DNA of 64,000 nucleotides from positions 258,581,863-258,645,862 of the forward strand of contig CP136064.1 of the NCBI GenBank assembly GCA_032622095.1. The letters run 5' to 3'. A program made the position numbers and the translations under genes. The notes under the pieces were generated by a model. It searched no databases. It worked only from the letters and a program-made list of their open reading frames with translations, and was not told where the DNA came from. Shown piece after piece: positions 10,548 through 63,916 of this stretch. This DNA is from Siphonodentalium dalli. Lineage: Eukaryota; Mollusca; Scaphopoda; Gadilida; Siphonodentaliidae. Position 1 is the stretch's first letter; the number at the start of each line of letters is the position of its first letter.

Positions 10548-10635
10548 AAGCACAGCAGTCAGCGTATCTGTTCTTAGAGAAATTCTCTGGCTTCTGTGCT
10601 GCTCGACAATCCTTCGTCAATCCCGCTGGCAGATT
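10548..10635 (-). CDS. Exon 9: start of the protein tyrosine phosphatase domain
   Basis: The 29 codons read NLPAGLTKDCRAAQKPEN then FSKNRYADCCA. This is the conserved N-terminal PTP segment, with A-x-x-P-E-N and K-N-R-Y-x-D/N. The leftover T before GTAAGT would begin the Tyr of the following Y-D-H-S-R-V phosphotyrosine-recognition loop in the next exon. The acceptor is TACTTCACAG. No match to that loop, to D-Y-I-N-A, to the WPD loop or to HCSAGVGR was found to the left, so the catalytic exons should be beyond the window edge. Confidence 0.88.
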
Positions 10636-11689
10636 CTGTGAAGTAAAACTAGAGGCATGACTTAGGCTGCATGACAATATAGATGTATGTCTGTTTTTAT
10701 GGGACTAAAGTAGGTATAAGGTCAGTTGTAAAGACACACCACAGCGAACTTAGGCTATATACATGTATATATAAGGGGTAGCCCTATAAACATATTTCCA
10801 ATTCGAAAACGGGAATATCTCTGCTAAAATAAGTATGAAAAACCTTGCTCACAAACACCCAGGTGCACATGCTATAAACTATAATGTTTAAAGGCTTTAT
10901 ATTGCACAATGTCACTGAAAACTATATCGAAAAGACATCATGATTGTAATTAAGACGACCCAAGTCCAATTCCGATGGCATAATAAATAAACCAGAAAAT
11001 AATTAAATAATACTACTATCGGTTCTTCGGAGAGAGGCTTAACTCCGATGACGTCAAAAGAGTTGGACAAATTAAAAACACAAATTCGGAGCCTCAGATG
11101 ACATCATTGAAGTCAGCCAATTTATTTGTCAAATATGAAAACAATAATTGACTGCGAGTGCCGTGGGTCCTTCTAAACACAGTAACAACCAATAATCGAA
11201 TTGAACACACACTCCCCAATTCCGAATTGGCTCACAAATTTGTGGGGCTGAAGCCAGGGAACTTCCAATAAAAAAGTTTAAAAGCACATTGTAACAGTTA
11301 CACCCCATCCACCACTTATCGCATTCAATGATTCATATCCATCAGTATTTATTAAGAAAATTAGCAGGGACTTGGGTTTGGGGGGGGGGGGGGGGGGGGT
11401 GTCTCCGCAACTTTGGTCAAAATTTTCAACAGTTGGAAATTTCATACCTGACACAACATTAGTTGGAAACTTCACACCAACAATAGGTTGAAAATGTTCT
11501 TGTAGATTGATTTTCAAACAATTTATTGCGGGGAATTTATTGTTTCTGGACCAATATTTGCATATTTTCCTTCTTTTGGTAAAATTTTTGGACTGAAATG
11601 GCCATCAGTTGGAAATTTTCCCTACCTTAGGGGGGTGTCAGGTTGGAAATTTCCAACACTTGGAAAGCTTGTGTCCTGGTCCCTCCCCC

Positions 11690-12195
11690 GTAGCCAGTCA
11701 AAAACTGCTAGTTAATTTATGAAAACAAATTGGCCTACATTTGGTCAAAATTGTCACTGGAATTGTCATCAGTTGGAAATTTTCCAACCTAAGGCGGGGT
11801 ATCAGGTTTGAAATTTCCAACTCTAGGAAGGCTTGAGGCTAGTCTAGATGCTAGGATTTTGCAATTTTCTTGTTCAGATTTCAAAAATTTTCACACACCG
11901 GGCCCAACCATGGTCGGCCCGGTGTGTCCTGGTCCCTCCCCCATAGCCAATACAAAACTGCTAATTAGTCTAAGAAAACAATATTTTACATTTGGTCAAA
12001 ATTGTGGACTGAAATGGTCAAATAGTTGGAAAATTTCCAACCTAAGGGTGAGTATTGGGTTTGAAATTTCCAACTCTAGGAAAGTTGAGGTCAATCTAGA
12101 TGCTAGGATTTTGCGATTTTCTTGTTTAGTTTTCAAATTTTCTCACACAGGGCTGAGCAATGGTCGGCCCGGTGTGCCCTGGTCCCTTGCCTTGT
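11690..12195. repeat. ~265-bp tandem repeat, two units
   Basis: The stretches 11690-11950 and 11950-12195 share, in order, aaaactgctagttaatttat-like sequence, tttggtcaaaattg, gttggaaattttccaacct, gaaatttccaactctaggaa, tctagatgctaggattttgc and catggtcggcccggtgtg. An open frame of 129 codons (11808-12197) arises because the unit is open in that frame. No homology is apparent. Confidence 0.8.
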
Positions 12196-12769
12196 AGTCG
12201 TGAGCATTTGTCTGGAGTTTGACCACTAGACGTTAGGATTTATGCAATTTTCAGGTTCAATTGGAATTCCCCAAGGTGGACAAGGAGATATCATATTCCA
12301 CCAGTTTTTGAAGGCCTGACGTGGAACTTTATAACATCGAAACAATAACACAGGTACTATATATTTCAGTATATACATGTATCTATAGATACTGGTCCTC
12401 ATTAATGTACTTGACATCAGATGAAGCTCTGCAGCTCAAGATTTCATGATTTATGTGGCTTTTGTGAACCAATTTCACGATAACGTGAATTGGTTAGCCC
12501 GGGGAAAACTGTATGATCGTAAATGATGCAAAGCAAAATCGCATCACAAAAGCATCTAAATAATGTAATTTAAAGCTGGCCTTTGAAATAATGTGAAATA
12601 CATTATTTATGAAGTGGTATTTAATAAGAAATATATACCCGCGCTATTTATTCAATGTTATAATGTTTCCCGTCAGATCTTTAAAAAGTTCCCATGTTTT
12701 GAACTGGTGTAATATGATCTCCAACAGCATAGCCATATTGTCGAGATTCATGGCGTAAACCGAACAGAG

Positions 12770-13738
12770 GCAGAGTTCAGTCCCCTCGCTATGCTTGTCT
12801 AACTACTGCCACCACGTATACATACATAATTAAATCTAACATATTTTATGTAAGAGTTTTGTCGGCTACAATTCATTCTGATTTGATCTAGCCAATTTCC
12901 AAACGAAAAAATAATAAAATTGTTAAAAGTATGTAAAAAAATAATAATAAAAATGTAAAAATGTTAAAGAATGTAAGAACACAATTATAAAATGATAAAA
13001 TTGCTAAAGAATATAAGAAAAAATTATAAAAACTGTTATAGAATGTAAGAAATAAAATCTAAAAAATGATCAAAACTGTTAAAGAATCTATGAATAATTG
13101 ATAAATAACGATAAAAAATTGTTAACCAACAAACCGGCCAAAAACGCCCAAATAAAGCTTCAACAGCCTAAAATATCTTCGGTTTGTCTCAATAACACCA
13201 TACAAATATGGATATCATTGGAACCGGTTCATTGACCACATTGTGATGGTTACAGTTATGCCCTGTGCCAATGCATTCTCTTATATATGCGAGTCGACCA
13301 TAGGTCGCCTCGCATATATAAGAGAATGCATTGGCCTAAAAACATTCTTATTTTAACACTTTTTACCATTTTTTCTTACATTCTTAAACAATTTTAGAAT
13401 TTTTTCTTACATTTTTTAACAATTTTTATAATATTTTTCTACATTCTTTGACAATTTTATCATTTTTAATATGTGTTAAGCCAAAGCATTCTCTTATATA
13501 TGCGAGGCGACCTATGGTCAACTCGCATATATAAGAGAATGCATTGGCACAGGGTCTTTAATAACACACATGTTGACTTTTCTGACACAACAGTACTCAG
13601 TGGACAGTTCTGTTTCTCAGAATAATGCAAAATGAATTGCAACCGACAAAAGTCTTTAATAAAAATGTGAGATTTACTCACATTATGTGTATATGATGGC
13701 AGTGATCAGTTCAGCGTAGCAGGGGACTGAACTCTGCA
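12770..13738. mobile_element. ~970-bp inverted-repeat element, family D, containing two 67-bp palindromes
   Basis: The left arm gcagagttcagtcccctcgc and the inverse right arm (cgtagcaggggactgaactc) bound the element. Both arms continue inward with aagagttttgtcggctacaa and its inverse for about 130 bases. Inside are an AT-rich minisatellite and an inverted pair of 67-bp palindromes (13268-13334, 13481-13547). The element ends 47 bases from the exon 8 donor. Confidence 0.7.
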
Positions 13739-13785
13739 TTACCATTTGGGCATGATCTAGCTGAAATGTCGCAAACTGAATCTAC

Positions 13786-13976
13786 CTCAAACTCCTGTTT
13801 GAATGTCCCCATCGCCTTCATCTTGAGCACGTGATGCCAGAGATTGGATAACTCGATGGCAGTCGAGTCACCTTTAAATGTGGAGACTGGGGCAGGTTTG
13901 TCGTCGCCGAAGATCGTTTCCAATTCATCATCGAAGTGGTTCTGTTTTCTCGACCCCGGAGTCAGGGGCATGCTAT
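13786..13976 (-). CDS. Exon 8: juxtamembrane region leading into the PTP domain
   Basis: The exon has 63 full codons starting DSMPLTPGSRKQNHFDDE. Its second half, STAIELSNLWHHVLKMKAM, then GTFKQEFE, matches the helix-turn-helix before receptor PTP domains, where the pattern is I-x-x-x-x-F/L-x-x-x-x-x-x-M-K-x-x-x-x-F-x-x-E-F. The acceptor is GATTTGCAG and the donor GAG|GTAGAT, in phase 0. Joining to exon 9 gives FKQEFENLPAGL, the typical E-F-x-x-L-P-x-G transition. An inverted-repeat element (12770-13738) ends about 47 bases beyond the donor. Confidence 0.87.
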
Positions 13977-14815
13977 CTGCAAATCGATAGGAAAATCACA
14001 TATAGGGATTGCATTGAGGTGATCATGTGGTCTTTATTTGGATGGTGAATGCCACTGTTATAGGCATGGATACATTTTCAAAGAGTACAAATCATAAGTT
14101 TGGTACATTCTGCTTAACCCTTTCAGTGCCAGGGGCCGATCTCATCGGCCCTAATTTACGGTCTGTAAAATCGGCCCTAAAAAAATAAAAAATAAAAAAC
14201 TTTTTTTTTATATAGATTTTAAAAAAATTATTAAAATTGTAAAAAATTGTAAAAAATAATAACAAATGATGAAAAATTGTTAGGCCAATGCATTCTCTTA
14301 TATATGCGAGGCGACCATGGTCGACTCGCATATATAAGAGAATGCATTGGCACAGGGTATATGGGTTGATACAAAAATCGGACCTGGCACTCAAAGGGTT
14401 AAACAGTAAAGACATGGAAACACTTCTATAATTTAATATTGATTTTATTTAGAATTTTCTGGTATGTAACCATCAATTGTGACAAATTAAGGCTAGCGTT
14501 CATTTGGCACGTACCATGCGTGATAAATCTATCTAAATATAGTAACAAAAAAATGTCACAATTGATTATCGCATAATATAAGAAAATATCGACATACAAT
14601 CGATATTAATTGATAGATGGGACTTATATCTATAATGTTGTACCAGGAAAAATATAAAACGTGTTTAGGAAGAGAAGGACTATATTTAACATGTTTATAA
14701 TGCAGCAAACAACTGGAGCAGTTGCTGAATGGTAAAACAGCTCTGTTAGTCATTATGATTTGATTGACAGCTGTGGATAGATCTATTATGCATGCAGGAA
14801 AGCAAAGAGTTTTAC
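13977..14815 (-). other. Intron 7 (839 bp) carrying a TTAA-flanked element
   Basis: The donor is GTAAAA and the acceptor GATTTGCAG. About a third is the 289-bp element at 14114-14402. The remainder is AT-rich with nothing recognised. Confidence 0.8.
14114..14402. mobile_element. 289-bp TTAACCCTTT-ended MITE with internal 67-bp palindrome
   Basis: The ends TTAACCCTTTCAGTGCCAGG and the inverse CCTGGCACTCAAAGGGTTAA form terminal inverted repeats with TTAA at both borders, as expected of piggyBac-type insertions. A 67-bp palindrome (14284-14350) sits asymmetrically inside, in the right-hand context (preceded by gttagg, followed by cacagg), so it looks like an older arm of family A captured or nested in this element. 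Confidence 0.75.
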
Positions 14816-14910
14816 CAATTTTGTTGATGGTGTCAAAGCTTTTTGACTCGACGTATCCCAATTCGCTTTTGTCTCCAGAATACATCATCTTTGATCGTGA
14901 TACCTTGCGG
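14816..14910 (-). CDS. Exon 7: cytoplasmic juxtamembrane segment
   Basis: The exon has 31 full codons: RKVSRSKMMYSGDKSELGY, then VESKSFDTINKI. It begins with C, completing TGC from exon 6, after ATTACAG, and ends G|GTAAAA. The basic start matches a stop-transfer signal directly after the membrane helix. The Tyr residues in MMYSG and LGYVES could be phosphorylation sites, but nothing in the sequence proves that. No domain is recognisable, and the support comes from exact phase matching on both sides. Confidence 0.78.
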
Positions 14911-15055
14911 CTGTAATGATATGGAATTAAAGGGAATCAGTAACAGTGAAATATTCAAATAAAGCGAATAGTTTCACAATTTCTTGCAAAAGTTTCTCTA
15001 CACCACACATCCTATACATGCATCATTTACAAGGCTACAAGCCTGGATATAGTGT

Positions 15056-15465
15056 GTCTGAAATTTGCAGAATGAGGTCCCCAGAGGGTGAATTTAGTGA
15101 CGCTATCCCGAACAAGTAGGCTAGCATCACCAAATTCACCCTCTGGGACCGCTCAAAAACTGCTTAGCCCTCAATTCCTTGGGATACTTAGAATCAGATT
15201 GAAGTTCCCCAGTTGAAGTTGGTGATGTCCGCCCATTAGTCACCTTGATTGTGCAATTTATCTTCTGCAAATTAGTGAATATAGAAACTGAACAGAATGG
15301 AAAAAGTATTAAACTAAAACATTGTTAATTTGAAACTAGATACTTCCCAGAAGATGAAGCATAAGCCTAATGTGGTTCCAAGATATGAATTTGGTGATGC
15401 TAGCCCGCTGGGCTGGATAGCGTCACTAAATTCAACCTCTGAGGACATCATTCTGCAAATGAAAC
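15056..15465. repeat. Family C foldback, long spacer form
   Basis: The left arm ttgcagaatgaggtccccag and the right arm ctgaggacatcattctgcaa are inverted, with a second internal inverted pair (ctagcatcaccaaattcacc near 15121 and its inverse near 15390). The spacer of about 240 bases holds no ORF. Confidence 0.75.
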
Positions 15466-15631
15466 TTTACATATACCTGCTAGGAATGATTGCAAAACAA
15501 TAAGCAAATAAATTGGTGACTCTGTTCATAAATGAAATGGATCGTTTGAACATCCAACATTATGTATAAGTAATCGCATGGCCACAGATACAGTTTCGGA
15601 GGAAGTGCATTGTGCTGTTCCAATATAATGG

Positions 15632-15848
15632 TACAGTAATGCTCTAATTAATCGACCTCTTAACCACAGCAGAATTATGGGTAACTTTTCAGGATTTAGT
15701 CGGAAATATGGCTTGTTGCCATTCATCGGAAAGCTCTCCCCGAGAGCTTTCCGATGAATGGCAACAAGCCATATTTCCGACTAAATCCTTAAAAGTTACC
15801 CATAATTCTGCTGTGGTTAAGAGGTCGATTAATTAGAGCATTACTGTA
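15632..15848. repeat. 217-bp near-perfect palindrome, family B
   Basis: It has the same length and arm sequence as 5135-5351 (tacagtaatgctctaattaa, aggatttagtcggaaatatg, gaatggcaacaagccatatt), centred on gctctccccgagagc near 15740. Strong arm-to-arm identity suggests recent insertion or gene-conversion-like arm homogenisation. Confidence 0.92.
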
Positions 15849-15934
15849 GTTCCTTTCTGTGTTAAAATTCGGACCCATGTTCAGACTGATACGCTTCCCA
15901 ACCCTTGATGAAAGGGCTTTCTTTTTTAAGGTTG

Positions 15935-16025
15935 TCCCTGTAGCTGAGATGGTTATAGGTCGTGTATAAGATCATCGTAGTCGATCTGACCTATAGACAA
16001 GGTTGGTGTGGATTCTAACCCTGAC
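15935..16025 (+). repeat. Possible tRNA-derived SINE head
   Basis: It contains a tRNA-like A-box (tagctgagatgg at 15941) and, about 60 bases on, a T-arm-like stem gttgg/ctaac around ggtgtggattcta. The D- and acceptor stems are not convincing and the loop is one base too long, so this is not a functional tRNA. It may be a degenerate polymerase III promoter of a SINE. The 3' tail is not defined. Confidence 0.25.
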
Positions 16026-16390
16026 ATGGGCGAAAATTGGGACCGATTTCAAGTTTGATCTGAATTGAGGGTCTCAATATGCCCTTCCGATCGATACATG
16101 TCCATTTGATAAGAATGATAATTTGTTCACAATCACTGAAGCAAGCACATTTGAAGCAATGGACTCTCATACATACTGAGTCCATATGCCTCCATGCATA
16201 ACTCTGGAATCTGTAATTTGGAAGGAGACGATAAGTATACATGAAATATCCATCTACATATATACACTGAAGAAACATGCCAAAGTCATAACAGGTGTCC
16301 GCTGTCTTCAATATTTGTAGAGCAGAGTGAGAAATTTAAAACGCTCTTTATTTCTCACCATATCATGAACAGACTAACAAGGAACGCTCT

Positions 16391-17403
16391 AAGGCCAAAA
16401 AAAAAAAGGGTTCTGATTCTCAGGCAATTGTTTTTGAGAATCGATGAGGGAGCGAGGGTTTTATTTTTATTTTTTATTTTTGTTATGGGGATAATGCCCA
16501 TAGTTAGCATGGGTTATTATACCTTCCCAGGTTAAGAAAATGTATGGAGAACATTGTTTTGATATAAACTAATATATTCCACAAGAATGACCAATTATCA
16601 CATTTTCTCAGTGGGTTTCTCATCCCACACTGGCAGTTCGCCGATAAACAGCTTTTTCCTGAGCTGGCCTAGGGTAAGATCTTTCTCAACGTTGTAGATG
16701 GACAAGTCTACTGACGTTTTATCACCTGTTGTCACATTTAATGGGATGAGCCTATTTGAATTTCTAATATTGTTTCGTAACAACCATGTTTAATAACAAC
16801 AAACAGAACTAAATACCCGGTTCAATTACTCAAATAAAAATACGGAACGTGAATACAATCGAAACGAAAAGATATAGTGATCTTCATAGAAAGTCTAGAA
16901 TGACTTATTCTGCCGTATCTGAATAAGTTTTATGTACCTCAATACATGCTAGCCATAAAAACTTCAAATACTATTATATTAAACCAGCATACACATCGCC
17001 AATACGCACCATATTTCTTTCCGGTTTGCATTCCCGAAATTGGAAATCTCAGAATTGTTTACCGCACGAAAAGTGGGTTATCTACCTTTCGAATTGATAA
17101 AATGCCGAAATATTTGAACACATTTGACTTAATAAACTTGGGGTTTGGGCAGCTTTTGGTGACAATATACCTGGTAGTTATCGTTGCCTAGTGTCTGTTT
17201 TGAATACCAACACATACACCATTGTATGTCTATCATATTCGATGTTTGAAACATAACTAATTTCTGTTTTCTAGTTTCCTATTTTCGTGTTATCATTTGA
17301 CAGCTTCGGTCAAATTGAAAATCATAATAAAACGGTTCAACGCGGGCCTTTTTTCCAGACGCGGCTATGCCCGAGAATCAATACCCTTTTTTTTTTGGCC
17401 TAA
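16391..17403. mobile_element. ~1-kb unit bounded by inverted repeats, enclosing a ubiquitin-fold-like ORF
   Basis: The left end is aaggccaaaaaaaaaaaggg followed by ttctgattctcaggca. The right end is tgcccgagaatcaatac followed by ccctttttttttttggcc, its inverse with a few mismatches. The interior holds the ORF at 16598-16765 and otherwise AT-rich sequence. No transposase is visible, so this would be a non-autonomous or gene-capturing element. The A/T homopolymers inflate the apparent match, but the gattctc-g/aggca core lies outside them. Confidence 0.45.
16598..16765 (-). CDS. Unassigned short ORF, possible alternative 3' exon or captured fragment with ubiquitin-fold-like pattern
   Basis: The frame reads LIPLNVTTGDKTSVDLSIYN, then VEKDLTLGQLRKKLFIGELP, then VWDEKPTEKM and a stop. 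Alternating hydrophobics followed by L-T-L-G-Q-L-R-K-K-L resemble the first two strands and helix of a beta-grasp (ubiquitin-like) fold, but I cannot name a family. An AG at 16766-16767 would let exon 6 (ending TG) splice here in frame, giving Trp then LIPLN and a short cytoplasmic tail without phosphatase. The polypyrimidine tract is poor. No start codon precedes it. It may equally be a pseudogene fragment in a transposable element, or chance. Confidence 0.25.
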   Translation of the reverse strand, partial: RNSNRLIPLNVTTGDKTSVDLSIYNVEKDLTLGQLRKKLFIGELPVWDEKPTEKM

Positions 17404-17779
17404 TAATAACTATTTTTTTTATTTTAGAGTTTGCTCGGTCACAACTCATTCTGCATTATTCTGAGAAACCGAACTGTCTATATTCATATTTAAATTAATT
17501 GGCTAGATCAAGCCAGAATGAATTGTATCCGACAAAACTCTTGAATAAAAAATGTTAGATTTAATTAAATGTATACTGTATATACATGATGACAGTGGTC
17601 AGACCACCATAGCGAGGGGACTGAACTCTTCCTCGCATTTTGCTCTGACAACTGCCATCACGTATACAAACCATAAGCCGATCTTACATTTTTTATTTGA
17701 CCTTTGACCAAAGTTAGGGGGACCTGTCGCCATGTCCCTGTTTCTGAAGCATCGACATCTCTCTTATATTATCACTTAC

Positions 17780-17891
17780 CAAATAAAGAATATAATGCAG
17801 GCGAGTACGAGAAGGAACAGAATCCCTCCAGCGGCGGCGGCGATGATTGTGTATTTAGGAGACTTGGTGTGACCCTCATCCTCAACTTGTC
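17780..17891 (-). CDS. Exon 6: transmembrane helix of the receptor phosphatase
   Basis: The exon has 36 full codons between TTTTAACAG and TG|GTAAGT. It encodes GQVEDEGHTKSPKY, then a hydrophobic stretch beginning TIIAAAAGGILFLLVLAC and running on through IIFFI to a Cys, then a basic stop-transfer segment supplied by exon 7 (CRKVSRSK). This is a type I single-pass membrane segment. If the following intron is retained, translation stops after one Trp (TGG TAA), which would leave a membrane-anchored form without a cytoplasmic domain. Confidence 0.9.
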
Positions 17892-18419: not shown

Positions 18420-21400
18420 CTGATGATATGCATGCACCATCCATGTCACATTTCCCTCCACCACAGCTGTCACTACAAGTGGAATTACAGAATTCACCGA
18501 AGAAACCATCAGCACAGCCTCCGATACAGGACCCGGTTACTCCATTACAAGCGACCTTGCAATTCTTTTCACATTCGTGCTGGCATTGTGGACCGAAATA
18601 TCGATCGATGCACCCATTTGTGCACATACCATCCATTCCCGAGCAACTTGATGGTCCGTTGATACCGGCGGTGCAACCAGGACTGCAATCAAATGCACAC
18701 TTAAGACCAAACTTTCCATCAGTACATCCAACCAAACAATTGCCGTTGTTCCTGGCGCAGATTTGTGTCCCGTTAATTCCAGTCGCACAGCCATGACTAC
18801 AATCGAGTTCACACTCAATACCAAACTTTCCACTGATACAGCCTGCCAAACATGTGCCATTGTCCCTGGCGCAACTCATTGTTCCGTTAATGACGGCGCA
18901 CCCAAGACTGCAATTGAGTCCACATTTGAGACCAAACTTTCCATCAACACATCCTTGTAAACACGTGCCGTCGTCCCTGGCACAGATTGGTGTCCCGTTA
19001 ATGGCAGCACAACCAAGACTGCAATCGTGTCCACATTCAAGACCATACTTTCCACCAATACAGCCTGCCAAACATGTGCCATTGTCCCTGGTGCAGCTCA
19101 ATGTCCCGTTAACGATGGCACACCCAAGACTGCAATCATGTCCACATTCAAGACCAAACTTTCCATCAATGCAACCTTTTAAGCAACTGCCGTCGTCCCT
19201 GGAGCAGCTCGGGGAGCCATCTGTAGTTAGAATGCACCCGGTGTTACAATCCATATCACAAACTGAGCCATATGTGTTATTCTTGCATCCGGCTTTACAT
19301 TCCCCATCATTTTGTGCACAAATGCCATCTATGCAATTATCACTACATGCCTGATCACACAAATCACCAAAATAACCATTCATACAAGTATTGCATTTCA
19401 TATCAGTATCAGATACACCATCACACGACTGACACGTTTGTGGGCATGAGTTGTTGCAAAATGCTCCAAAATAACTCACATTACACCGGAGACACACCGA
19501 GCCGTCCTTATCACACTCGAGGCAATTGGGATTCAAGTCAGTACAACTGTCGTTACACTGGTCTCCATAATAAGCTAGTTCGCAGTCATTATTACATGCA
19601 CCATCTATAGGACAACTGAAGTTTCCGAGGCAATGACGCTCGTTGCAGTCAGACGAACATATTGGGTCATAAGCATCGTTATTACAAGAAAGACAGTCTC
19701 CAGTTGTCATGTTACAAGTTTTGCAATTGTCGCACTGATTAGAACAGTCTATTCCAAACACACTATCTGCGCATGACAAGCATTTACCAGAATCCTTATC
19801 GCAAGTTTCGCACAAACATTCCTCTGTACAATCTGGGGAGTACCATCCATTTTCACAAGTGTCGCACTCTCCGTCCATAGAACACGTGTCGTTACTGAGT
19901 TTGCAGTGTCTATATGAACAAGGCGTGTCACAAGATGGGCCGTAGAACTCTGATCTGAGGCAGGATGAACATATTCCTGTGTCTCGACCACAAGTGACAC
20001 AATCGTCGCACCTCTGATCACATCTCATGTCAAAGAATCCGTCCTTACATTGTTGACACACACCACTATTTTGGTAACAACTGAGGCATTTGTCGGGACA
20101 CTTTCGCATGCAGTCAAACCCATACCATCCTGGTTGACATTCACCTAAACAGGAACCATCCATGTTGCAATTGTCATCGGGGATTGCACAATGCCTCTCT
20201 GAGCAATTCTTGGAACAGTCGAATCCGTATGAACCATTATTGCATGCGATGCACGTGCCATCGACCTTGTAACATGTAGTACAAGGGTCACATGAATTGG
20301 CACATTGATCGCCATAGAAACTAGGTAAACATTCCTGACACACTCCATCAGTTTGGTTGCATTCAACGCAAGATTTTGGACATTCACTGGAACATGTTAT
20401 TCCGAACCATCCGGGCTGGCAGTGATCACAGCGACCATCCATTGAGCATGCATCGGTTGCATTGTCCAAGAACATGCAGTGTCTCGCAGTGTTGTTGCAG
20501 AGGAAGTCGCAGTCTCTACCGTAAAGGCCACTGGCACATGTATCACATGTTGCAGTATCCTGATTACATGACTCGCAGTTCAGAGGGCAAATGTGTGTAC
20601 AGCTGAATCCCGTCCAACCATCGTGGCAACCGGAAAGGCAATTTCCAATATCATCACAGTCTGATTTGTCGGTGCAATGGCGGCTTTCGTTGTAACAGTT
20701 GAATGTGCAATCTTTGCCATAATATCCAACTGAACAGACATCACAATATCCCATAGATTGTGAGCATTGTTTACAGTTTCCGAAACATTCCGCTGAACAA
20801 TTTAGTCCCCAATAACTCGATTCACAGCCACTGAGACATGAACCTTCCAAGTCACATTCACTCTTATCCAAGCAATGTCTGTCGGTTGAATTACATACAT
20901 ATTGACATGAGTCTCCATAGTAACTGAGTTGACACCCGAGGCAGTCGCCGGTCACTTGGTCACAAGAATCGCAATTGACATCACATGGTAGAGAACAGTT
21001 TTTGGCATACCAACCATCCGTGCAGTTTCCATGACAAGAGCCATCGTTCATACATGTTGATTGGTCGGCACAATTATAGGCAGTGCTGTTGCAGAACTGA
21101 TCGCATTTGCTCCCATAGAGACCATCAGTGCAATCTTTACAATCTCCGGAAACTTTATTACAGGTGGAGCATTTCGAATCACATGACGTCATACAATCGA
21201 CTCCATAGTAGCCATCGACACAGACTGCACAGAATCCGTCATCGGAACATGCAGCACTCCGAGTAGCTTTACAATGTCTGTCTTTGCAACGCTTAGAACA
21301 TCCAGTCATTAAGTCGAACATACCACGAGTACATGCCATACATTGCTGTGTTACTTGGTCACATTCACGACAACCCGTGCCGCATTTCTGTGTGCAATCT

Positions 21401-21725
21401 ACACCCGTCCGCCCAGATATACAACCAAACTCACATGTCCCATTTCGATCACATGTATTGGTCAGAATTGAGCATTCCCGATCCTCGCAATCAGCAGAAC
21501 AGTCCGGTCCGTATAATCCAGGCATGCATTCTTTGCATTCCAGAGTGCCTGGATCACATGATTTGCACCGATCTTTGCACTGAACTGTACAATCAATCCC
21601 ACTCCACTGATCTGCGCAGCCGGTCGAACAGACTCCGTTGTATTTACATGATGCGATGTTCTTGGAACAATGTCGAGAAATACACTCACGTGTGCAATTG
21701 CTTCCATAAAATCCAGATAAGCATC
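18420..21725 (-). CDS. Exon 5: giant exon encoding about 25 tandem EGF-like (MEGF/laminin-type) units
   Basis: The exon is 3,306 nt (1,101 full codons) with no stop and phase 1 at both ends. It starts CLSGFYGSNCTREC after TTGCAG and ends DMDGACISS before G|GTGAGT. The sequence is a regular series of Cys-rich units of the form C-x-x-C-x-x-x-x-G-x-C-x-x-C-x-x-G-x-Y/F-G-x-x-C, as in MEGF10/11, SCARF and laminin-type EGF repeats. The first two thirds use units of about 40-44 residues. The last third (about 18520-19290) is built of 37-residue units with the shared core GKFGLECGHDCSLGC, about 111 bp apart and close in sequence, so recently duplicated. Many N-x-S/T sites suggest heavy glycosylation. 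Role: extended extracellular stalk, possibly a ligand-binding region. Packing this many EGF units into one exon is unusual; elsewhere such units often have their own exons. Confidence 0.93.
18520..19290. repeat. 111-bp (37-residue) tandem repeat inside exon 5
   Basis: On the plus strand the block gaccaaactttccatca and variants recur at about 111-bp intervals (near 18705, 18819, 18930, 19041 and 19149), as do ccaagactgcaatc and gtccctggcgcag. At protein level these are the EGF-like units GCIDGKFGLECGHDCSLGC and relatives. Low divergence relative to the rest of the exon implies recent expansion. Confidence 0.9.
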
Positions 21726-21762
21726 CTGCAACATAATGAGTTTTAATAGAGTGTGTTCTGTA

Positions 21763-28793: not shown

Positions 28794-29021
28794 TGTAAGC
28801 CATGGCCTCGCAAAACTGAAGTTGTTTCACTCCTTGTGTCTGGATGACCATATACCGACCAGAGATCACTCCATGATCACATTGAACGTCATATAACCTT
28901 TTGCCTTTAGCCCCGCCAGGGTTTGTATAGCAGACGGCACTGTTTACACCCGGCTTGCCCCAATCACTGGGAACTGTACTGTTCGATATGATGACTTTGA
29001 AATTTGTCAGTAACGTAAGAT
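28794..29021 (-). CDS. Exon 4: C-terminal half of the fucolectin-like domain
   Basis: The exon has 75 full codons and starts in phase after exon 3. It reads (D)LTLLTNFKVIISNS, then SAVCYTNPGGAKGKRLYDVQC, and ends GRYMVIQTQGVKQLQFCEAMAY. This matches the C-terminal part of fucolectin domains, where L-x-N-F-x-V, C-x-x-C/V-x-Y, G-R-Y-V-x-V/I-x and L-x-L-C-E-V follow in this order. Together with exon 3 the domain is about 140 residues, the usual length. The acceptor is ATTTTCAG and the donor A|GTGAGT. A 24/25-bp tandem repeat starts within 50 bases of the donor. Confidence 0.87.
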
Positions 29022-29659: not shown

Positions 29660-29848
29660 TACAGTGATGCCCTAATTAATCAACTTCTTAACAACAGCAG
29701 AATTATGGGTAACTTTTCAGGATTTAGTTGGAAATATGGCTGAGAGCTTTCCGATGAATGGCAACAAGCCATATTTCCGATTAAATCCTTAAAACTTACC
29801 CATAATTCTGCTGTGATTAAGGAGTCGATCATTTAGGGCATTACTGTA
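29660..29848. repeat. 189-bp family B palindrome, centre partly deleted
   Basis: The ends tacagtgatgccctaattaa and ggcattactgta match the 217-bp family. One arm lacks the gaatggcaac block next to the centre, so the hairpin is asymmetric. Confidence 0.88.
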
Positions 29849-33949: not shown

Positions 33950-34144
33950 CTTTCAGACTGTATATCCTGAGGAACCATACAGGCGTTACTTTTTTCATGT
34001 CGACGTACCACCACGGATCATCCTCGACTAGAGTCTTAATGCAGCTCGTTGTTCGTCGTCGTGTTGAACCTTCCACAGCTAATTTACTCACAAAGTTAGA
34101 ATCCGTTGATATCATGTTAGTTTTTTTCTGCCGGAGTAAGTTTC
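33950..34144 (-). CDS. Exon 3: N-terminal half of a fucolectin/F-type-lectin-like domain
   Basis: The exon has 64 full codons. Hallmarks are NLLRQKKTNM at the start (family: N-x-A-x-x-x-x-x-x-Q-S-S), SKLAVEGSTRRRTTSC (family: A-x-x-A-V-D-G-N), and DDPWWYVDMKKVTPVWFLRIY (family: P-W-W-x-V-D-L with P-V-x-x-V-x-I-Y). The acceptor is TTTTTGTAG. The donor is not GT: the exon ends AAAG|GCAGGT, and only a GC donor here keeps exon 4 in frame. The family motif Y-N-R-x-D, part of the sugar pocket, is replaced by YSLKD. The exon lies between two copies of a foldback repeat (33617-33870 and 34327-34628). Confidence 0.85.
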
Positions 34145-36081: not shown

Positions 36082-37001
36082 CCAACTCCACAGTACATTT
36101 ATCTCCTATTAGTCGGTCTGCAGGGGTCACTCACACCAACTCCACAGTACATTCATCTCCTATTAGTCGGGCTGCAGGGGTCACTCACACCAACTCAACA
36201 GTACATTCATCTCCTATTAGTCGGGCTGCAGGGGTCACTCACACCAACTCAAAAGTACATTCATCTCCTATTAGTCGGGCTGCAGGGGTCACTCACACCA
36301 ACTCAACAGTACATTCATCTCCTATTAGTCGGGCTGCAGGGGTCACTCACACCAACTCCACAGTACATTCATCTCCTATTAGTCGGGCTGCAGGGGTCAC
36401 TCACACCAACTCCACAGTACATTCATCTCCTATTAGTCGGGCTGCAGGGGTCACTCACACCAACTCAACAGTACATTCATCTCCTATTAGTCGGGCTGCA
36501 GGGGTCACTCACACCAACTCCACAGTACATTCATCTCCTATTAGTCGGACTGCAAGGGTCACTCACACCAACTCAAAAGTACATTCATCTCCTATTAGTC
36601 GGGCTGCAGGGGTCACTCACACCAACTCCACAGTACATTCATCTCCTATTAGTCGGGCTGCAGGGGTCACTCACACCAACTCAAAAGTACATTCATCTCC
36701 TATTAGTCGGGCTGCAGGGGTGACTCACACCAACTCCACAGTACATTCATCTCCTATTAGTCGGGCTGCAGGGGTCACTCACACCAACTCCACAGTACAT
36801 TCATCTCCTATTAGTCGGGCTGCAGGGGTCACTCACACCAACTCAACAGTACATTCATCTCCTATTAGTCGGGCTGCAGGGGTCACTCACACCAACTCCA
36901 CAGTACATTCATCTCCTATTAGTCGGGCTACAGGGGTCACTCACACCAACTCCACAGTACATTCATCTCCTATTAGTCGGGCTGCAGGGGTCACTCACAC
37001 C
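36082..37001. repeat. 54-bp minisatellite, 17 units
   Basis: The unit ccaactccacagtacattca-tctcctattagtcgggctgc-aggggtcactcaca is repeated about 17 times with almost no change except at one site (tccaca, tcaaca or tcaaaa). Because 54 is a multiple of three, open frames of 236 and 108 codons run across it; a C-to-T change at 36721 closes the first. Confidence 0.97.
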
Positions 37002-37189
37002 AAAACAAGACAGTCAATGACTGTGGAGACGCTCACCAGACTGTAAAGACTAGGAAGACAGGGACTCGGAAGACCATAAGAGTTAGTACTTGTCATATTC
37101 ACTTAAAAACAAGTAGTCCTAAAGAGGGACATAGCCTAGAGGGTCTCCGTTGAATAGTGGGGTGTCCACCTTGAAATATGGTCTAGATC

Positions 37190-39420: not shown

Positions 39421-39576
39421 GCATTTGACAGGTAGGGCCAGCATAACCCGTCCGGCATAGATTCTTCTGACATGTACCGCTCTGTTCATCACACTTCATC
39501 TTTGGCTTACAATTACACTTGTAACACTTGTCGTGTGATGTGCTCTTGAACAATCCCTCGCTACAATTGAATCCAT
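39421..39576 (-). CDS. Exon 2: small Cys-rich EGF-like module
   Basis: The exon carries 51 full codons and has phase 1 at both ends. It contains NCSEGLFKS, then CYKCNCKPKMKC, then SGTCQKNLC and GYAGPTCQM: eight cysteines, ending in the G-Y-x-G-x-x-C signature of EGF-like domains. The acceptor is TTTTCCAG and the donor is C|GTGAGT. The module sits between the signal peptide and the fucolectin-like domain. It follows a 24-kb intron, so an undetected short exon between exons 1 and 2 cannot be excluded, although their phases join directly. Confidence 0.85.
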
Positions 39577-56344: not shown

Positions 56345-58373
56345 CTAATCCTGTTCATTGAGGCTCGCATGAATATGAAAAGCTGGCTACAAATGTGACC
56401 ACCATAGAAAAGCTGGCTACATTTGTGATCGATTTAAAAAGCTGGCTACGAATGTGATCGATGCCTCGTGACAAGGACCCCATCATCCCTATTAATGGGT
56501 TCATGTTTCCGCTCTAATTATTTTATGGTATAGAAAACGAAGAGATGGTGCTTTTATATCGTCAAAATGGACAGGGAATCTTTCATAAATGAGAAATAGA
56601 CTCTAATGTTTTGTGGAAATTAAATGTCCTTGCAAATATGTGAAACATTTTACAGATTCCCTAAACTGGTACATATTCAGCATACATTAATTCACACACC
56701 ATCGTGCATAAAGGCGCCAGATCAACCGCAATCTAAGGAGATAGTTGACAGAAACTTCCCCAAAATATTAGGGAGGGGGTATAGTATACATCCTTGCCTG
56801 ACGTCTCAGTCAAATCGCCCCACGTTATAAAATTAAGGACATTCCGAAGACAAGCCGCATGGTCTGCTCAACATATGTAGAGCCAATTTACTACATTCTA
56901 ATGGGCTCTTATATATGTATAATCTTACTTTGGAACTTTGGTTTACGTTTATTCCAGGTATATACTAATTTACAATTATGTCAGTAACTATTCCTTTGCA
57001 TTAATTGCAACAAACTCTTCATATGACCAAAGTTAATATGTATTTGCCAGACAACTGCCCGACCGACAGAAGCGCTACATGGAGTATTTGGGGGGGGGGG
57101 GGGGGAGGGTGTCACACATCTACACCCCAACAGAATGTACGGCACTGTGCAAGATATAAGGAGATAGAACAGAAATCGTGTTCTCTGTGTTTATTTAGAT
57201 AAAACTTCTGGTACTCAAAGGTTCCAGAGATAAATTATCAGAAACTCGAAACTACTTGTCAAATGAGTATAAAAAAATCACAACATGCATTCTCCAATAA
57301 GCCATAAAATCGTTTTCCCATGTCCGCGTATATGAAATGCATATCCTCCAGAATCGTTTGAACGATCAGATAAGAGAGACATGGTTTCGATCTGGTTTTG
57401 TGAGATAGAGAAATATTCACTCAGTTCACAAATTCTTTTAAGAACACGCTCTGCGATATCTGCAAAACGAATTATGTAAGCCATCGCCAATGATGCAAGG
57501 ACAACCAAAGGTCGCTACTCCCTCGTATGTTTCGAGTCATGCTAAATTCTTGTTGACAAGTCTTTTGATATTTCCTCCGCGAAAATAAGATATCTTAAGG
57601 TGGCGCTGAGGCGACAAATGTTTCCACCTGGTTCGCATTGCGTTAGATATACACATTTATTACATGATTTATAAATTTCATTATAAAATGGGGACTCGTT
57701 GTAGATCCTGTATATATTATGTAATCCGGACCAGATTAAATCTTAATTAATATACTAACACGACACCAGGGGACAAGTGTGAGCGGTTATATATATAAAA
57801 ATTAAATCGCATATCTACACTAATCATGATTCCATGAAGGGTGGTAACTCTATAAAAACGTACTTTGACTTAATAACTGAGATTCGTTTGAAAGAATTTT
57901 CAAAACCACAAGTGATCAACTTTGATCATGTATACATAAGTAAAATTTACCTATTGGTGCCTGGGTGGGACACACAGGACTCGCTCAGCAATACCGCAAC
58001 TACACAAAACATTAAAGGGACACCCACACCCCGTATTAAAGCTCTTGGGCTCTTCCCCATAAATCATTCGATTCAACTTTTGCCGCGTTCGGACATGACG
58101 ATTTTCTATGTTCAGATATCCTCAAAACAACAAATCGTGGGGTGAAGGAGAAGATCACTCGATCTTTTCGACCACCCCGGGCGCTTCGCGCCCAACCACT
58201 GTCCTCCTGCCTTGGTGGGTTTGGTGGAAGTTATGGAAATATTCTTTAGAAACACTTCTTTAAATATTCACCGTTATTAAGTCAATGTTATCCTAGATTA
58301 CTCTTTAAAACACTTCTTCTCAGTCAATTTTAAAACTCGATGAATCCTAAGATCAATATTAACATATCTTGAT

Positions 58374-58591
58374 TTAAAGACATATCATGTACTCGTTCCG
58401 GTGCGAAAAACTGGTAAGTTAGTACTCAGGTGCTGTGCCAACTGGAGGAATGTAGCATTCTACTAACATCACTGAAAATCTCAAGCAAATCGACCGTACT
58501 AGTCCATAGAAAACATTGTCTGAACTACGCTAAATTGTAAATATTTACTACTCGAATCGGGACGCTTCTATCGGCAATAAACTAACGAAAA
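58374..58591. mobile_element. Truncated family F MITE
   Basis: It starts TTAAAGACATATCATGTACT and follows 41428-41650 closely up to ggcaataaactaacgaaaa, where an (AG)n tract begins. The right half of the element is missing. Confidence 0.82.
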
Positions 58592-58614
58592 GAGAGAGAG
58601 AGAGAGAGAGAGCG

Positions 58615-58685
<71 letters not shown>
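58590..58685. repeat. (AG)n microsatellite
   Basis: About 95 bases of almost pure AG dinucleotide with two agcgagcg interruptions. It begins exactly where the family F element is broken, and yields a spurious Ser/Leu-repeat frame on the minus strand. Confidence 0.97.
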
Positions 58686-58689
<4 letters not shown>

Positions 58690-58964
58690 TTAAAAGAAAA
58701 TACAACAAAATCTATGCTAACCCATCTGGGATAACTATCCACCAGATGGGCTGAGTGCGCCTTGCCTGGGGAGGGCATATCCAATAATTGGCTGTCTTAC
58801 TGCCCACCCCAACTAGTCATTAAAATAGCACTCTGCTCTGTCTGGAAGCTGCGTGGACCATGGTATATTATATAGAATAACTGTGGTCAATTATAAAATA
58901 TACAATTTGTGTATAGAATCATTTAGAAATGAATTAGAAATCATGGCAGCTATCCAAACGCATG

Positions 58965-59060
58965 AAGCGGCGACGGTTTAGAAATTACATTAGTGACGTA
59001 GGTTCCTGAACGTCAGAAGCGACGGTTTAGATATTACATTAGTGACGTAGGTTACTGGCC
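58965..59060. repeat. ~50-bp direct duplication
   Basis: gcgacggtttagaaattaca-ttagtgacgtaggtt is repeated twice with two mismatches. Confidence 0.85.
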
Positions 59061-59754
59061 CTGATCTTCACAGCAGGAAATTCAACATATTTCATGCAAT
59101 TCATGCATTAATTCATAGATATAAACTAGATATGTTTTCTGAACTGTAGACCCAGATATGTACTGCTGAATTTCAAAGAGAGAGAATCATGATTCAGCAT
59201 TAAAGGCCCACTTAATTTTTCGAATGCCCAGATCACATTATACACAATCTTTTCCATATTATATACCATTTGGAAGAGGAACCAAATATATATATATTCC
59301 ACTAGGATACGGAACCGCAGTGTCCATCAAGTGTTAGAGATTCTCAAATTCACCCCAAGACTTCTCACGTTTTTTACCCCACAGGGAGCCTGTATGCGGG
59401 AGCCCATTATATATAGATAAAAATGGGCACGAAGCGCATAGGGGCCACATAGAGGGCCCTCATATAGGTAGTGCTCACAGAAAGGGGCCACAGAGCATGT
59501 TTCTGTTAGTATAGTAAAAGGCAAGTTATGTTGATTTTATTGCGTTCCATATGCGCATGCATATATATGTCGGGTTGTAAAAATACAGTTCTCAGTGTTA
59601 TAAAGTGTTCCCACGCCACCAGTGACCAAAAAAAAAGAAGTAGCATTGCCGTTCCATTTCTCTAATAGAAATAAGAATTTGTTCAAGCCCGCGAACACCA
59701 GAAAGTAATAAGGAACATGTATTTACCCGTAATGTTTGACGGACAATCACCTAG

Positions 59755-59915
59755 TTTTCATTATAATTACCATGTTGTTTGCATCGTTCATAGATCACAC
59801 GAGTGTATTTAACACTAATCCATGACTCAAATTCATTCAGTTGTTGCATACATTGTTGAGTATAAAAGGAGATGGTCCCATAAATGGTCGGATTTACTGT
59901 ATAGTCGCCCTTTAA
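59755..59915. repeat. Half copy of the 62127-62475 foldback
   Basis: It contains ttttcattataattaccatg, ccatgactcaaattcattca and gagtataaaaggagatggtc, and ends at ctttaa. It matches the right arm at 62300-62475 but has no partner arm. Confidence 0.75.
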
Positions 59916-60218
59916 TTACTCTAGATTTTCAATAAATCGAATTGTTTGAAGATGTATCCTTGGTATATTGGAAGATTTAGTCTTTGAAAAAGAATTGTTA
60001 TGGCCGAAACATACAGAAACAGGCCATCGAGACCACCTTAAACACAGCATCTGATATTTTAAACACACATTTTTCTCAATCTCTTGAAAACGGAATTCTG
60101 AGTGTGCTGGGATACTAATTATCGACTTTATTGCTTTGATATAATGTGCTTGTTATTTTTCGGCTGTCATTGTGGAATTTGTAATGGCGAACTAACTGCG
60201 TATGTCACTAATTTGCTG

Positions 60219-60719
60219 TTAAAGGCACGTGAGGCCTTAATTGTCGAAAATATTCATATTTGTTCCAAACACCGTAAACAGAAAAACATTAAAACGCATA
60301 CAGTTTCGTTCAGATATACCATGACCATCGCGTAAACAGCATGTTATCATAAATACCTACTATATTTTACCTAAGCAAGAGCCTGATTGGGTTACAGAGG
60401 ACAACACAATGCTACTGGCTAATCACACACAAATGGCATAAACGCTCTTTATTAGTTCCATATCAGGAATTCACCAACAAAGAACGCTCTTTGTGTTTAC
60501 CATCATAATATAAACAAACACCAGAAAGGTAACTTTTTATGCGTTTGTTTACATAACAATGGTTAACATATGAGAATAACATACTGTTTATGCGATATTT
60601 CTTATTTATATACGGACAAAGTCTGTCTACATTTTGATGATCTTTCTGTTTGTGGCGGTTTTTGACGGGTGGAAATATTTTCACAGGATACCCACCGCCA
60701 AGACCAACCGTACCTTTAA
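60219..60719. mobile_element. 501-bp TTAA-flanked MITE (family E), copy 2
   Basis: TTAAAGGCACGTGAGGCC and GTACCTTTAA lie at the borders. Internal blocks acgctctttattagttccat, gaacgctctttgtgtttacc and ggcggtttttgacggg are shared with 21763-22231. Confidence 0.8.
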
Positions 60720-60974
60720 ATGTGTTTTTAGCAAACAGTATCATGCTGTCACTTAAATATGTTGTTAAATGGTATGAATTATGTCGCTGAACTAATTATG
60801 ATTACACAGTCCTCAGACTGCATTGTGTAACGAACACACCACAAATGGTCCAAATGGTACCAACCAACAGCCACATCACAAAATACCAAAATTGTATAGA
60901 ACTACAAGAACACCGGGCAAAAATATATAAAACAGGATATACATGTACTTGGGAATTATATATTCGAGGAAAGC

Positions 60975-61451
60975 TTAAAGGTACTCAATCCGTAAAGAGG
61001 GTCCCCATCTCAACAGATTCCAACAACAACAATCCGATCAGAGGGTCCTATATTACTATTTCTTTGGCTTTGGGGGTAAAAAATATTTGATTCGAGTCGA
61101 GGAACCCATCAAACAAAGCTCAGAGTTATTAGATATTGATTTTTGAAATTTGTTATTAACTCGAGATGAGTACTAACAACTGCCGTAATCTGCTCTGGAT
61201 GTATACTCCAAATCTATTCAAACAGACAAGGATGGATAACTCTAAAATCAAGTGGTAATTTTAACGCAATTTTGACTGAGTTCTGGGCCAGTTAGTATTC
61301 CCGATAATGAAAAATAATAGATTTCTAAAATCGATATCTAACAAATCTGAGCTTTGATGGGTGACTTCCTCGACTCGAATCAAATATTTTTGACCCCCGA
61401 AGCCATTGAAATAGTAATTGAGAGGAGTTTTATCGGATTGAGTACCGTTAA
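60975..61451. mobile_element. 477-bp TTAA-flanked MITE (family G), copy 2, inverted
   Basis: Same length as, and closely similar on the opposite strand to, 47557-48033, with ttaaaggtactcaatccg and ttgagtaccgttaa ends. A shared open frame (47469-47747 in part; 61261-61518) is preserved only because the copies are young. Confidence 0.88.
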
Positions 61452-61596
61452 TGTGTCGTTGGCTTTGCAAACATTGTGATCGAGAAAAGGAATATCGAAC
61501 ATTGGTGGAAAATGTCACAAAAATGAAGCCGGTATTGATATTTGGTCGATAAATACATTAATTACTCATATTCTGACTTATATTCTATTCCTGATA

Positions 61597-62040
61597 TGTG
61601 ACCCGCCATATCAAATCCAGTCGTAAGTCGGGATTTATTTTACCCTGTGCCAATGCATTCTCTTATATATACGAGTCGACCATATGTCGCCTCGCATATA
61701 TAAGAGAATGCATTGGCCTAACAATTTTTTATCATTTTTTTAAATAAATGTTTCTAACAATTTTTAGGACATAAAATAAAAAACATCCATTACCCTGCAG
61801 GGAGCCCCACACATATATAGAAGCATATAGAAGAGTGTCGTCTGCTCATGTTTGTATGGGCTCTGTATGGGTGAAATTATAAAATTGTTAAAGAATACAA
61901 GAAAAAATTATTAAAATTGTAAAAAATTGTTAGGCCAATGCATTCTCTTATCTATGGTCGACTCGCATATATAAGAGAATGCATTGGCACAGGGTAAAAA
62001 AAATCCCGACTTACGACTGGATTTGATATGGCGGGTCACA
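61597..62040. mobile_element. Family A TIR element with 67-bp palindromes, copy 3
   Basis: tgtgacccgccatatcaaat and the inverse ttgatatggcgggtcaca bound 444 bp. Palindromes lie at 61650-61716 and 61934-61987 (shortened). The interior has the same orientation as copy 2, opposite to copy 1. Confidence 0.87.
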
Positions 62041-62126
62041 TATATCAAAATTAATGAGTGTTTATCTCACTTCTGCGCGAACATTCGAAAACAGCTGGGA
62101 AAATATCCATGACATTGGCAACTGTG

Positions 62127-62475
62127 TTAAAGGGGGACTGCACACTAAATCCGGCCATTATGGGACCATCTCCTTTATACTCAACATAATATATGCAACA
62201 AAAGAATGGATTTGAGCCATGGATTAGTGCAATATACACTCATGTGCTCTATATGAACAATACAACAGCACGGTAATTATAATGAAAATGACACGAATCA
62301 TAAACTCATTTTCATTATAATTACCGTGTTGTTTTACATCGTTCACAGAGCACATGAGTGTATTTTTGCACAAATCCATGACTCAAATTCATTCATTTGT
62401 TGCATATATTCTGTTGAGTATAAAAGGAGATGGTCCCGTAAAATGACCGGATTTTGTGTATATCACCCATCTAAG
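62127..62475. mobile_element. ~350-bp foldback element
   Basis: The left arm (ccggccattatgggaccatc, tcctttatactcaacataat, ggtaattataatgaaaatga) is inverse to the right arm (tcattttcattataattacc, gagtataaaaggagatggtc, gaccggattttgtg), with a centre near 62300. The left border has TTAA at 62127-62130. Confidence 0.85.
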
Positions 62476-63639
62476 AGTATATACAGCCTATATACAAATC
62501 GGTACTTTGTGAATTTATAGATTTGTCGACTTATTATTCCTTCAGAATACCAATTTCAGTCTAATTTGCGATTGAAGGGAATCTTGGTCTGAAACGACAT
62601 TTTTTTTACACTAAATATTGGTTGGAAACTCTCACTATTGGAACAGTCCTATTTTGTCTTAATTTGAATTGAAAACTGTTGCTTATTTAGTCAAGAAATT
62701 TCCAACTTTTGAAAATTTGGTTCAATGTTGCGTGTAAAAGATACCAAAGCCCACTGGTTTTAGTTTAAACATATTTTATTGTATCATTTATGTACAAATG
62801 GGATTGGGGCACAAGTTATACAACTTAGATAGCCCCTCTCCCCACTGGTATGACGTAGACGACGAGCGTGGGGAGTCAGCAAAACAATTCAGGATACAAG
62901 GTTGAATTTTTGGCTTTCTAAATTTTGGAACCCACGAACGCATTTTGTTTGCAAGGGAAATTGGGATCCACCTCAAAGTTGAAAACAGCAGGGCAAGGCA
63001 GACGGATCCACCCCTTGATATTGTTATAAAAGATCAAATATTTGGTAAATATTGAAACTGGGAACCCTCTTCATTTGATTAATGCTCTATTTTGTCCCAG
63101 TTTATAAGCCTAAACATTTATACTCGTTTTAGTAGTCATAATTTGTCTTTGAACATGGATTTGGAAAAACATTTATCCATGGCATTTCAAGAATCTGCGA
63201 TTGGGGCCTCAGTCATACCCACCCACATGAACCTTGTGCCGATGCATTCTCTTATATAAGCGAGTCGAAAGCAAAGCATTTCCTTTAAGTTCAGACTGGT
63301 ATATGTTTTACCAACCATAGATTCATGGTCACTAGTCCATTAGCAATGTCAAACCTCCATATATTTCTGAGGACAGCTTTAACAATATACCAATTCAGGA
63401 CATTCAGCATACTTGTTACCATTGTGTGAGTTTGACTCCTTGTGATTTGAATCCATGTAACTCGTATTCGTTCCTCAACCAATCTCTGATTAATATCATG
63501 TATAACGTATTGCATGCACAGTGTACTCAATACATAAAACATGGATCAATGCTATGTCATTCTTGTTACTAGTGTCTTTATTCACACAGTCCATACTCTT
63601 AAAAAAGAACATAAATAAACCCAAATTATAAAGCCATTA

Positions 63640-63745
63640 TTGGAATTTTGCACTACTCAAAACCAAATCCTATATAGTTGAAAATGTTATTAGACCAAAT
63701 CCTATATAGTTAAAATGTTATTAGACCAAATCCTATATAGTTGGA
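63640..63745. repeat. 33-bp minisatellite, three units
   Basis: aaaccaaatcctatatagtt followed by gaaaatgttattag is repeated three times, about 90 bases downstream of exon 1 in gene sense. Confidence 0.92.
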
Positions 63746-63831
63746 CATTTTATGGTCTCACCCCCAGTTGGAACCCCCTAGCAACGCCCTTGAAAATATG
63801 GTATGGTATGGTAAAACGGATATCCACTCAC

Positions 63832-63916
63832 TTGTTGTCTGCCCAAACGTGAGATCAAAACTCAGCAGAAATAATCCAGATAGAAGAAAGAAAGTAATCA
63901 CTGTTGGTGTCCCCAT
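63832..63916 (-). CDS. Exon 1: start codon and signal peptide of the receptor phosphatase
   Basis: The 28 codons read MGTPTVITFFLLSGLF then LLSFDLTFGQTT: a short polar start, a hydrophobic core rich in Leu and Phe, and a small residue (Gly25) that suits signal peptidase cleavage. The exon ends in phase 1 at a strong GTGAGT donor (63831-63826). The ATG at 63914-63916 has G at -3 and G at +4. In-frame ATGs lie 30 and 33 bases upstream (63946 and 63949) and would add a polar N-terminal tail. I prefer the downstream start because it puts the hydrophobic core close to the N-terminus, but the longer form is possible. The leftover A joins AT of exon 2 to give Asn. Confidence 0.8.

Follow-up and report, generated by a model that had tools for sequence, protein, structure and literature searches.

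A 64,000-nt stretch of genomic DNA of Siphonodentalium dalli (assembly GCA_032622095.1, contig CP136064.1, positions 258,581,863-258,645,862 of the forward strand), hereafter called the window, carries on its minus strand a predicted gene for a receptor protein tyrosine phosphatase (PTP) with an unusual ectodomain. Twelve exons, read from 63916 to 6401 (all exon coordinates are window positions), were joined into a frame of 1,555 residues with zero stops, and the phases are consistent at all 11 junctions. The predicted protein comprises, in order: (i) a signal peptide, (ii) a cysteine-rich EGF-like module, (iii) an F-type-lectin-like domain, (iv) an EGF-like array, (v) a membrane helix, (vi) a juxtamembrane segment and (vii) the first third of a PTP domain. 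A preliminary description of the locus had joined nine exons in phase, from the signal peptide (63916) to the exon encoding KNRYAD (10548); this part of the model was reproduced in exon number and end point and was extended to 12 exons, ending at 6401.

The division of the gene into exons bounded by splice signals marks the window as eukaryotic DNA, and the comparisons drew on profile libraries, solved structures and published papers. Splice-site scores come from a generic matrix made by hand and are given as percentile ranks among the AG or GT sites of the minus strand. Exons 1-9 have AG/GT borders, the exception being the GC donor of exon 3. Nine of the 11 acceptors rank above the 95th percentile and those of exons 4 and 11 above the 90th, while seven of the 12 donors exceed the 95th percentile, the remainder being the donors of exons 8 and 12 (94-95), exon 2 (91.3), exon 3 (GC; 88.5) and exon 7 (80.8).

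Exon 1 (63832-63916) contains the ATG start codon and a hydrophobic stretch (MGTPTVITFFLLSGLFLLSFDLTFGQTT), judged by eye to be a signal peptide without a dedicated predictor, and ends at a gtgagt donor ranking at the 99.7th percentile of GT sites. Exon 2 (39421-39576; splice sites ttttccag and gtgagt) encodes an eight-cysteine EGF-like module in phase 1-1, for which the sole Pfam hit was weak and to an unrelated family (Vps3844_C, E 0.064). When both strands were scanned for cysteine-rich exons of phase 1-1, 52 candidates emerged; exon 2 was one, and the remaining 51 all lay within the open frame of exon 5, so that both exons were found blind.

The F-type-lectin-like domain is encoded by exon 3 (33950-34144; N half; acceptor at the 99.8th percentile, donor gcaggt) and exon 4 (28794-29021; C half), both supported by domain matches. 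The two exons were tested together (141 positions). A phmmer search of solved proteins in the PDB matched the fucolectin-related structure 2j1r in a single stretch (2.6e-5) and FBP32 at 3.2e-6, a value that sums two stretches, each of them weak by itself (2 and 0.055); Pfam F5_F8_type_C_2 was matched at 5.3e-5, with 24.2 bits, below the curated cut-off of 27.8. Judged by these matches, the F-type-lectin fold is recognisable in exons 3-4, and the fucolectin-like label of the preliminary description holds for the fold. It does not hold for the sugar-binding site. The fucose-binding motif HX24RXDX4(R/K), published for F-type lectins and quoted here from passages of a review (PMC5712786), has no match in the domain, in which residue 115 of 141 is the sole His. 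K, L and L occupy the H, R and R positions of the motif when the domain is aligned with FBP32 or 2j1r, and in the 2j1r alignment the loop bearing RXD is shorter. Use of an alternative, weaker GT donor at 33959, which makes exon 3 three residues shorter, still does not restore the motif. Since the motif is absent, fucose recognition is not expected, and the domain appears degenerate.

A related proposal, compatible with a receptor PTP, is that the domain still binds a glycan, either one other than fucose or through a changed pocket. Passages of the same review allow departures from the motif to mean either another specificity or lost sugar binding, and report that the basic triad is absent in five of 10 modelled oyster F-lectin isoforms and that two of its three residues are replaced in Drosophila CG9095 (PMC5712786). 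In the domain described here AVEGS comes close to the cation motif h2DGx, with Glu in place of Asp, and the motif Asp of the fucose site pairs with an Asp in some of the displayed alignments, e.g., that with 2j1r; the substituted basic positions and the shortened loop count against this proposal, and we consider retained glycan binding a tentative option, on the doubtful side. The ectodomain as a whole contains 30 N-glycosylation sequons.

The 3.3-kb exon 5 (18420-21725) encodes the EGF-like array. Its 198 cysteines form 32 six-cysteine units, preceded by a two-cysteine start and followed by a four-cysteine end, instead of the approximately 25 units previously estimated; the units were counted by hand, from an automatic split that breaks eight of them in two. 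The frame of the array is stop-free over 1,128 codons, against a longest run of 199 in 50 shuffles (about 20 kb, with the composition of the array). From the alternating part of the array, 10 long-short pairs were selected, which do not comprise every unit; they show 28-45% identity to the first pair and contain 12 invariant columns. A profile built from these pairs found a single solved protein at E≤0.01, namely SCARF1 (8hna, 1.8e-5), which was also the top Foldseek match of an AlphaFold2 model of one pair (predicted local distance difference test, pLDDT, 86.1), and Pfam EGF_2 was detected in four of the 10 pairs at E≤1 (best E 0.0006). SREC-type EGF-like repeats are thus indicated by the profile and, more weakly, by fold and Pfam, and the MEGF-like ectodomain of the preliminary description can be sharpened to a SCARF1/SREC-like one by the array profile and the top fold match. 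When the whole array was used as a single query, no relative was found among viral contigs. Near the end of exon 5 lie six tandem repeats of 37-38 residues, among which the ratio of nonsynonymous to synonymous substitution rates (dN/dS) is 0.10-0.37 in the computable pairs (10 of 15, three of those 10 with dS >2). A predicted structure of the tandem 37-residue repeats (pLDDT 42.3) was too poor for use.

Exon 6 (17780-17891) encodes the membrane helix (IIAAAAGGILFLLVLACIIFFI). The six most hydrophobic 21-residue segments of the whole protein all lie in this exon (means 2.5-2.9), and among the segments listed none exceeds 1.6 between residues 60 and 1310. By eye and by hydropathy, the sequence points to a signal peptide, an ectodomain and one membrane helix ahead of the PTP domain. 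Exon 7 (14816-14910), a cytoplasmic juxtamembrane segment (CRKVSRSK...), is the least certain exon and was placed by its phase 2-1 fit between exons 6 and 8. Twenty-two candidates have the required phases (entry 2, exit 1); this one was chosen among them for its length and sense, ranks tenth by splice score and was overlooked by a stricter scan. An open reading frame at 16789-16601 was rejected as the juxtamembrane exon: its visible borders enter in phase 1 and exit in phase 2, a misfit, whereas 14910-14816 fits.

Exon 8 (13786-13976) continues the juxtamembrane segment up to the entry of the PTP domain (MKAMGTFKQEFE), and exon 9 (10548-10635; LPAG...KNRYADCCA) starts the domain itself, both being supported by splice sites, phase and matches to PTP proteins. 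Exon 10 (10003-10076; YDHSRV...SDYINANYIK) has an acceptor at the 99.9th percentile and completes a Tyr codon split T|AC over the exon 9/10 junction, which is a strong internal check. Exons 11 (9231-9267; 37 nt; GYERDQTYISAQ) and 12 (6401-6498; 98 nt; GPTVDTVDDFLKMLWQ...KCMEDSV) were scored against a PTP consensus, with five shuffles as a control. Exon 12 scored 71 against a shuffle maximum of 42, and its splice sites and phase fit; the score of exon 11 (38) is within noise (shuffles to 42), and this exon was accepted on phase, splice sites and position. The catalytic part had previously been placed beyond the window. This probably applies to the WPD-loop and HCSAG exons, which would lie to the left of position 1; the YDHSRV exon and the next two PTP exons are inside.

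Domain searches of the spliced protein, suggested in the preliminary description, gave besides the F-lectin-like matches a match of exons 6-12 to Pfam Y_phosphatase (E 6.6e-25), above the cut-off and starting at the first profile position (1-79 of 234). With exons 6-10 only, used as a control for circularity, the match (1.8e-8) is still above the curated cut-off. Exons 8-9 alone gave no match in Pfam, yet found PTPRT at 1.5e-4 among solved proteins. A PDB search with the cytoplasmic part returned 243 distinct solved sequences at E≤0.001. Among the best 60 of these 243, the top whole-sequence match is PTPRA (1.7e-41, summed over two PTP domains) and the top one-stretch match is PTPRT (102.5 bits, 2.3e-28), followed by PTPRK and PTPRM. 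PTPRA, PTPRF/LAR and PTPRS rank first because two PTP domains are summed, and the matches point to more than one candidate subfamily, that of PTPRT on the one hand and PTPRA/LAR on the other. The motifs KNRYAD, YDHSRV, DYINANYI and ISAQGP are retained.

The Pfam, PDB and array-profile matches support the receptor PTP with an F-lectin-like and many-EGF ectodomain that had been proposed. Our reading, to which we assign a probability of roughly 0.78, is that the locus holds one animal gene encoding a single-pass receptor PTP, whose ectodomain combines an EGF-like module, a degenerate F-type-lectin-like domain and a SCARF1/SREC-like EGF rod. In this receptor a scavenger-type ectodomain most likely controls a phosphatase. 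Receptor PTPs are generally viewed as phosphatases that are gathered at, or kept from, contacts, and the signalling model proposed here follows from that view. The EGF rod would keep the N-terminal beta-sandwich distant from the membrane, a ligand (surface, matrix or particulate) would, once bound, gather or exclude the receptor at the contact, and the cytoplasmic PTP domain would then dephosphorylate nearby tyrosine-phosphorylated receptors, the result being a brake or threshold setter in recognition or adhesion. The protein may accordingly be a recognition receptor that turns signalling off. If expressed whole as modelled, it would be a receptor phosphatase with a scavenger-receptor-like rod outside and a repurposed F-lectin fold. 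Invertebrates would then seem to have joined recognition modules of innate immunity or adhesion to phosphatase signalling, and the gene would be a specific candidate for an off-switch of such recognition. A bolder version, which we regard as improbable, makes it an inhibitory counterpart of the engulfment receptors Draper, MEGF10 and SREC, with their type of scavenger ectodomain coupled to a tyrosine phosphatase. In the blood cells of invertebrates, a single class of ligand could then both trigger engulfment and restrain it; if true, this would be paired-receptor logic made from scavenger receptors.

Several points weigh against the receptor PTP reading. The gene model is a prediction from genomic sequence, and the brake function is one that we infer. 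Exon 3 depends on a GC donor, and exon 7, one of 22 candidates, is followed by a weak donor site. The value of 6.6e-25 is partly circular, since likeness to PTPs was the means of finding exons 11 and 12, and the PTP domain has DFL in place of the conserved DFW. No WPD-loop or HCSAG exon was found in positions 1-10100, where the best scores for later PTP pieces (35 and 36) are inside the shuffle range. For the array, the Foldseek match to SCARF1 is weak (E 0.039, TM 0.46, root-mean-square deviation 6.9), none of the 37 matches of the pair model reaches E≤0.001, the whole array as a single query found no solved protein at E≤0.001, Pfam Giardia VSP was matched in two of the 10 unit pairs (a likeness in cysteine pattern), and dS is saturated in five of the 15 repeat pairs. 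Finally, phase 1 borders are the common state for shuffled modules. Exons 1-5 are joined throughout at phase 1, so phase agreement is weaker evidence for the ectodomain, and with long introns in addition (one of 24 kb) phase alone is no proof that exons 1-4 and 5-12 form one gene.

The change of DFW to DFL, the unseen catalytic exons, the lost fucose motif and the partial duplications next to intact exons 10 and 12 would also suit a decaying or non-catalytic copy, i.e., a pseudogene or a decoy receptor with a dead PTP domain. Such a copy is unlikely, given 12 exons free of stops and frameshifts with mostly strong splice sites, the low dN/dS of the array and the retention of KNRY, YDHSRV and DYINANYI. 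Even less probable are two adjacent genes, one for a secreted F-lectin-like protein (exons 1-4) and one for a separate EGF-array receptor PTP (exons 5-12), as the 7.1-kb intron between exons 4 and 5 and the phase 1 at every ectodomain border might suggest, since exon 4 runs stop-free and in frame to a donor and exon 5, which opens at an acceptor, carries no signal peptide itself (no search was aimed at a separate signal-peptide or terminal exon in this intron). That exons 1-4 belong to the same gene, with all 12 exons in one transcript, is likely, though not proven.

Small duplications were observed at exon borders. At 9820-10029 (minus strand), the 3' end of exon 10 together with its donor is repeated in tandem as a 53-nt family (four copies, 60-100% identical to the reference). 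The corresponding part of exon 12, again with the donor, is present as two tandem copies at 6328-6438 (minus strand; 91%), and the 5' end of this exon, with its acceptor, has a degenerate copy at 6600-6650 (minus strand; two 51-nt copies, 76%, 127 nt apart), in which CAG is, by eye, changed to CAA. These three separate duplications beside intact exons give the impression that short tandem duplications arise readily in this part of the gene. The minus strand also contains WP[DE] strings at 5126, 776 and 578, all three without PTP-like context and apparently fortuitous. Inspection by eye places the 776 string within a repeat that recurs near 13750, and this string scores 35, inside the shuffle range (31-37).

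Among the other repeats in the window is a palindromic element whose arms read CCAATGCATTCTCTTATATATGCGAG and often occur in pairs separated by about 15 nt. It was matched at 22 sites from 1501 to 63264 with ≤3 mismatches (0 in 100 shuffles) and looks like a short dispersed inverted-repeat element. A second dispersed repeat, AAATTCACCCTCTGGGGACCTCATTCTGC, was matched 13 times with ≤3 mismatches between 3572 and 34599, and eight of these matches lie around exon 3 (33.6-34.6 kb). A nearly perfect hairpin, approximately 90 nt long, is repeated at 5198-5288 and 15695-15785, and one arm of it recurs at 29746-29785. The intron between exons 2 and 3 contains a 54-nt minisatellite (36082-37003; 17 copies, 97%), which leaves plus-strand frames of up to 334 codons open, probably as a repeat artefact, and a 29-nt tandem array (1-269; 9.3 copies, 95%) lies at the window edge. 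Neither Rfam (gathering scores) nor ARAGORN (bacterial code) gave any hit in the window.

Related combinations of domains appear in the literature. Passages of an oyster study place EGF-domain proteins among the PTP-annotated set and report draper-like, multiple-EGF and receptor-PTP genes as together higher in circulatory than in mucosal agranulocytes; these data come from another animal and from a cell population rather than single cells, and the passages show no such receptor pairing (PMC13070813). For a vent snail, fucolectin and MEGF are given among the expanded families, with PTPRK among the abbreviations of the same figure legend (parts of PMC7895826), and in Nematostella an F-lectin domain occurs in a protein with CCP and EGF-like domains (from the review passages; PMC5712786). 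As far as these excerpts go, they make such combinations plausible and none describes the present one; nor was a description of an F-lectin-like domain, an EGF array and a PTP in one protein found in the parts of the open-access literature covered. In annotated molluscan genomes, receptor-PTP-like models whose ectodomains are EGF-rich are numerous, and the receptor plan may be commoner in databases than in print.

Compared with known systems, the predicted protein resembles F-type lectins (FBP32, 2j1r, eel AAA and the oyster bindins) in a fold-wide sequence match and, less clearly, in AVEGS as a near-match to the cation motif, and differs from them in lacking the fucose motif and in having one such domain within a membrane receptor. 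With SCARF1/SREC-I it shares the EGF-like unit pattern of the array, to which the MEGF10/Draper group is also akin; a PTP on the cytoplasmic side sets it apart from both. As a further difference from this group, no EMI domain was matched in Pfam at E≤1. An NPXY or tyrosine-based engulfment motif is a tail feature of CED-1, Draper and MEGF10, whereas the 195 visible cytoplasmic residues here contain no NPXY, ITIM-like or YxxPhi pattern. On the cytoplasmic side the likeness is to the receptor PTPs PTPRT, PTPRK and PTPRM (2ooq, 2c7s, 1rpm) and PTPRA and LAR (6uzt, 1lar), with which it shares the membrane helix, the juxtamembrane lead (MKAMGTFKQEFE), KNRYAD, YDHSRV, DYINANYI and ISAQGP, PTPRT being the only receptor PTP found by exons 8-9 alone. 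These receptors have DFW where DFL stands here, and only the first third of the PTP domain is visible in the window. In vertebrate receptor PTPs the ectodomain is usually built of FnIII, Ig, MAM or carbonic anhydrase-like domains, in place of which the present protein is predicted to carry EGF-like units and an F-lectin-like fold. By its sequence, this is a real gene in which an unusual ectodomain is joined to a known kind of receptor PTP.

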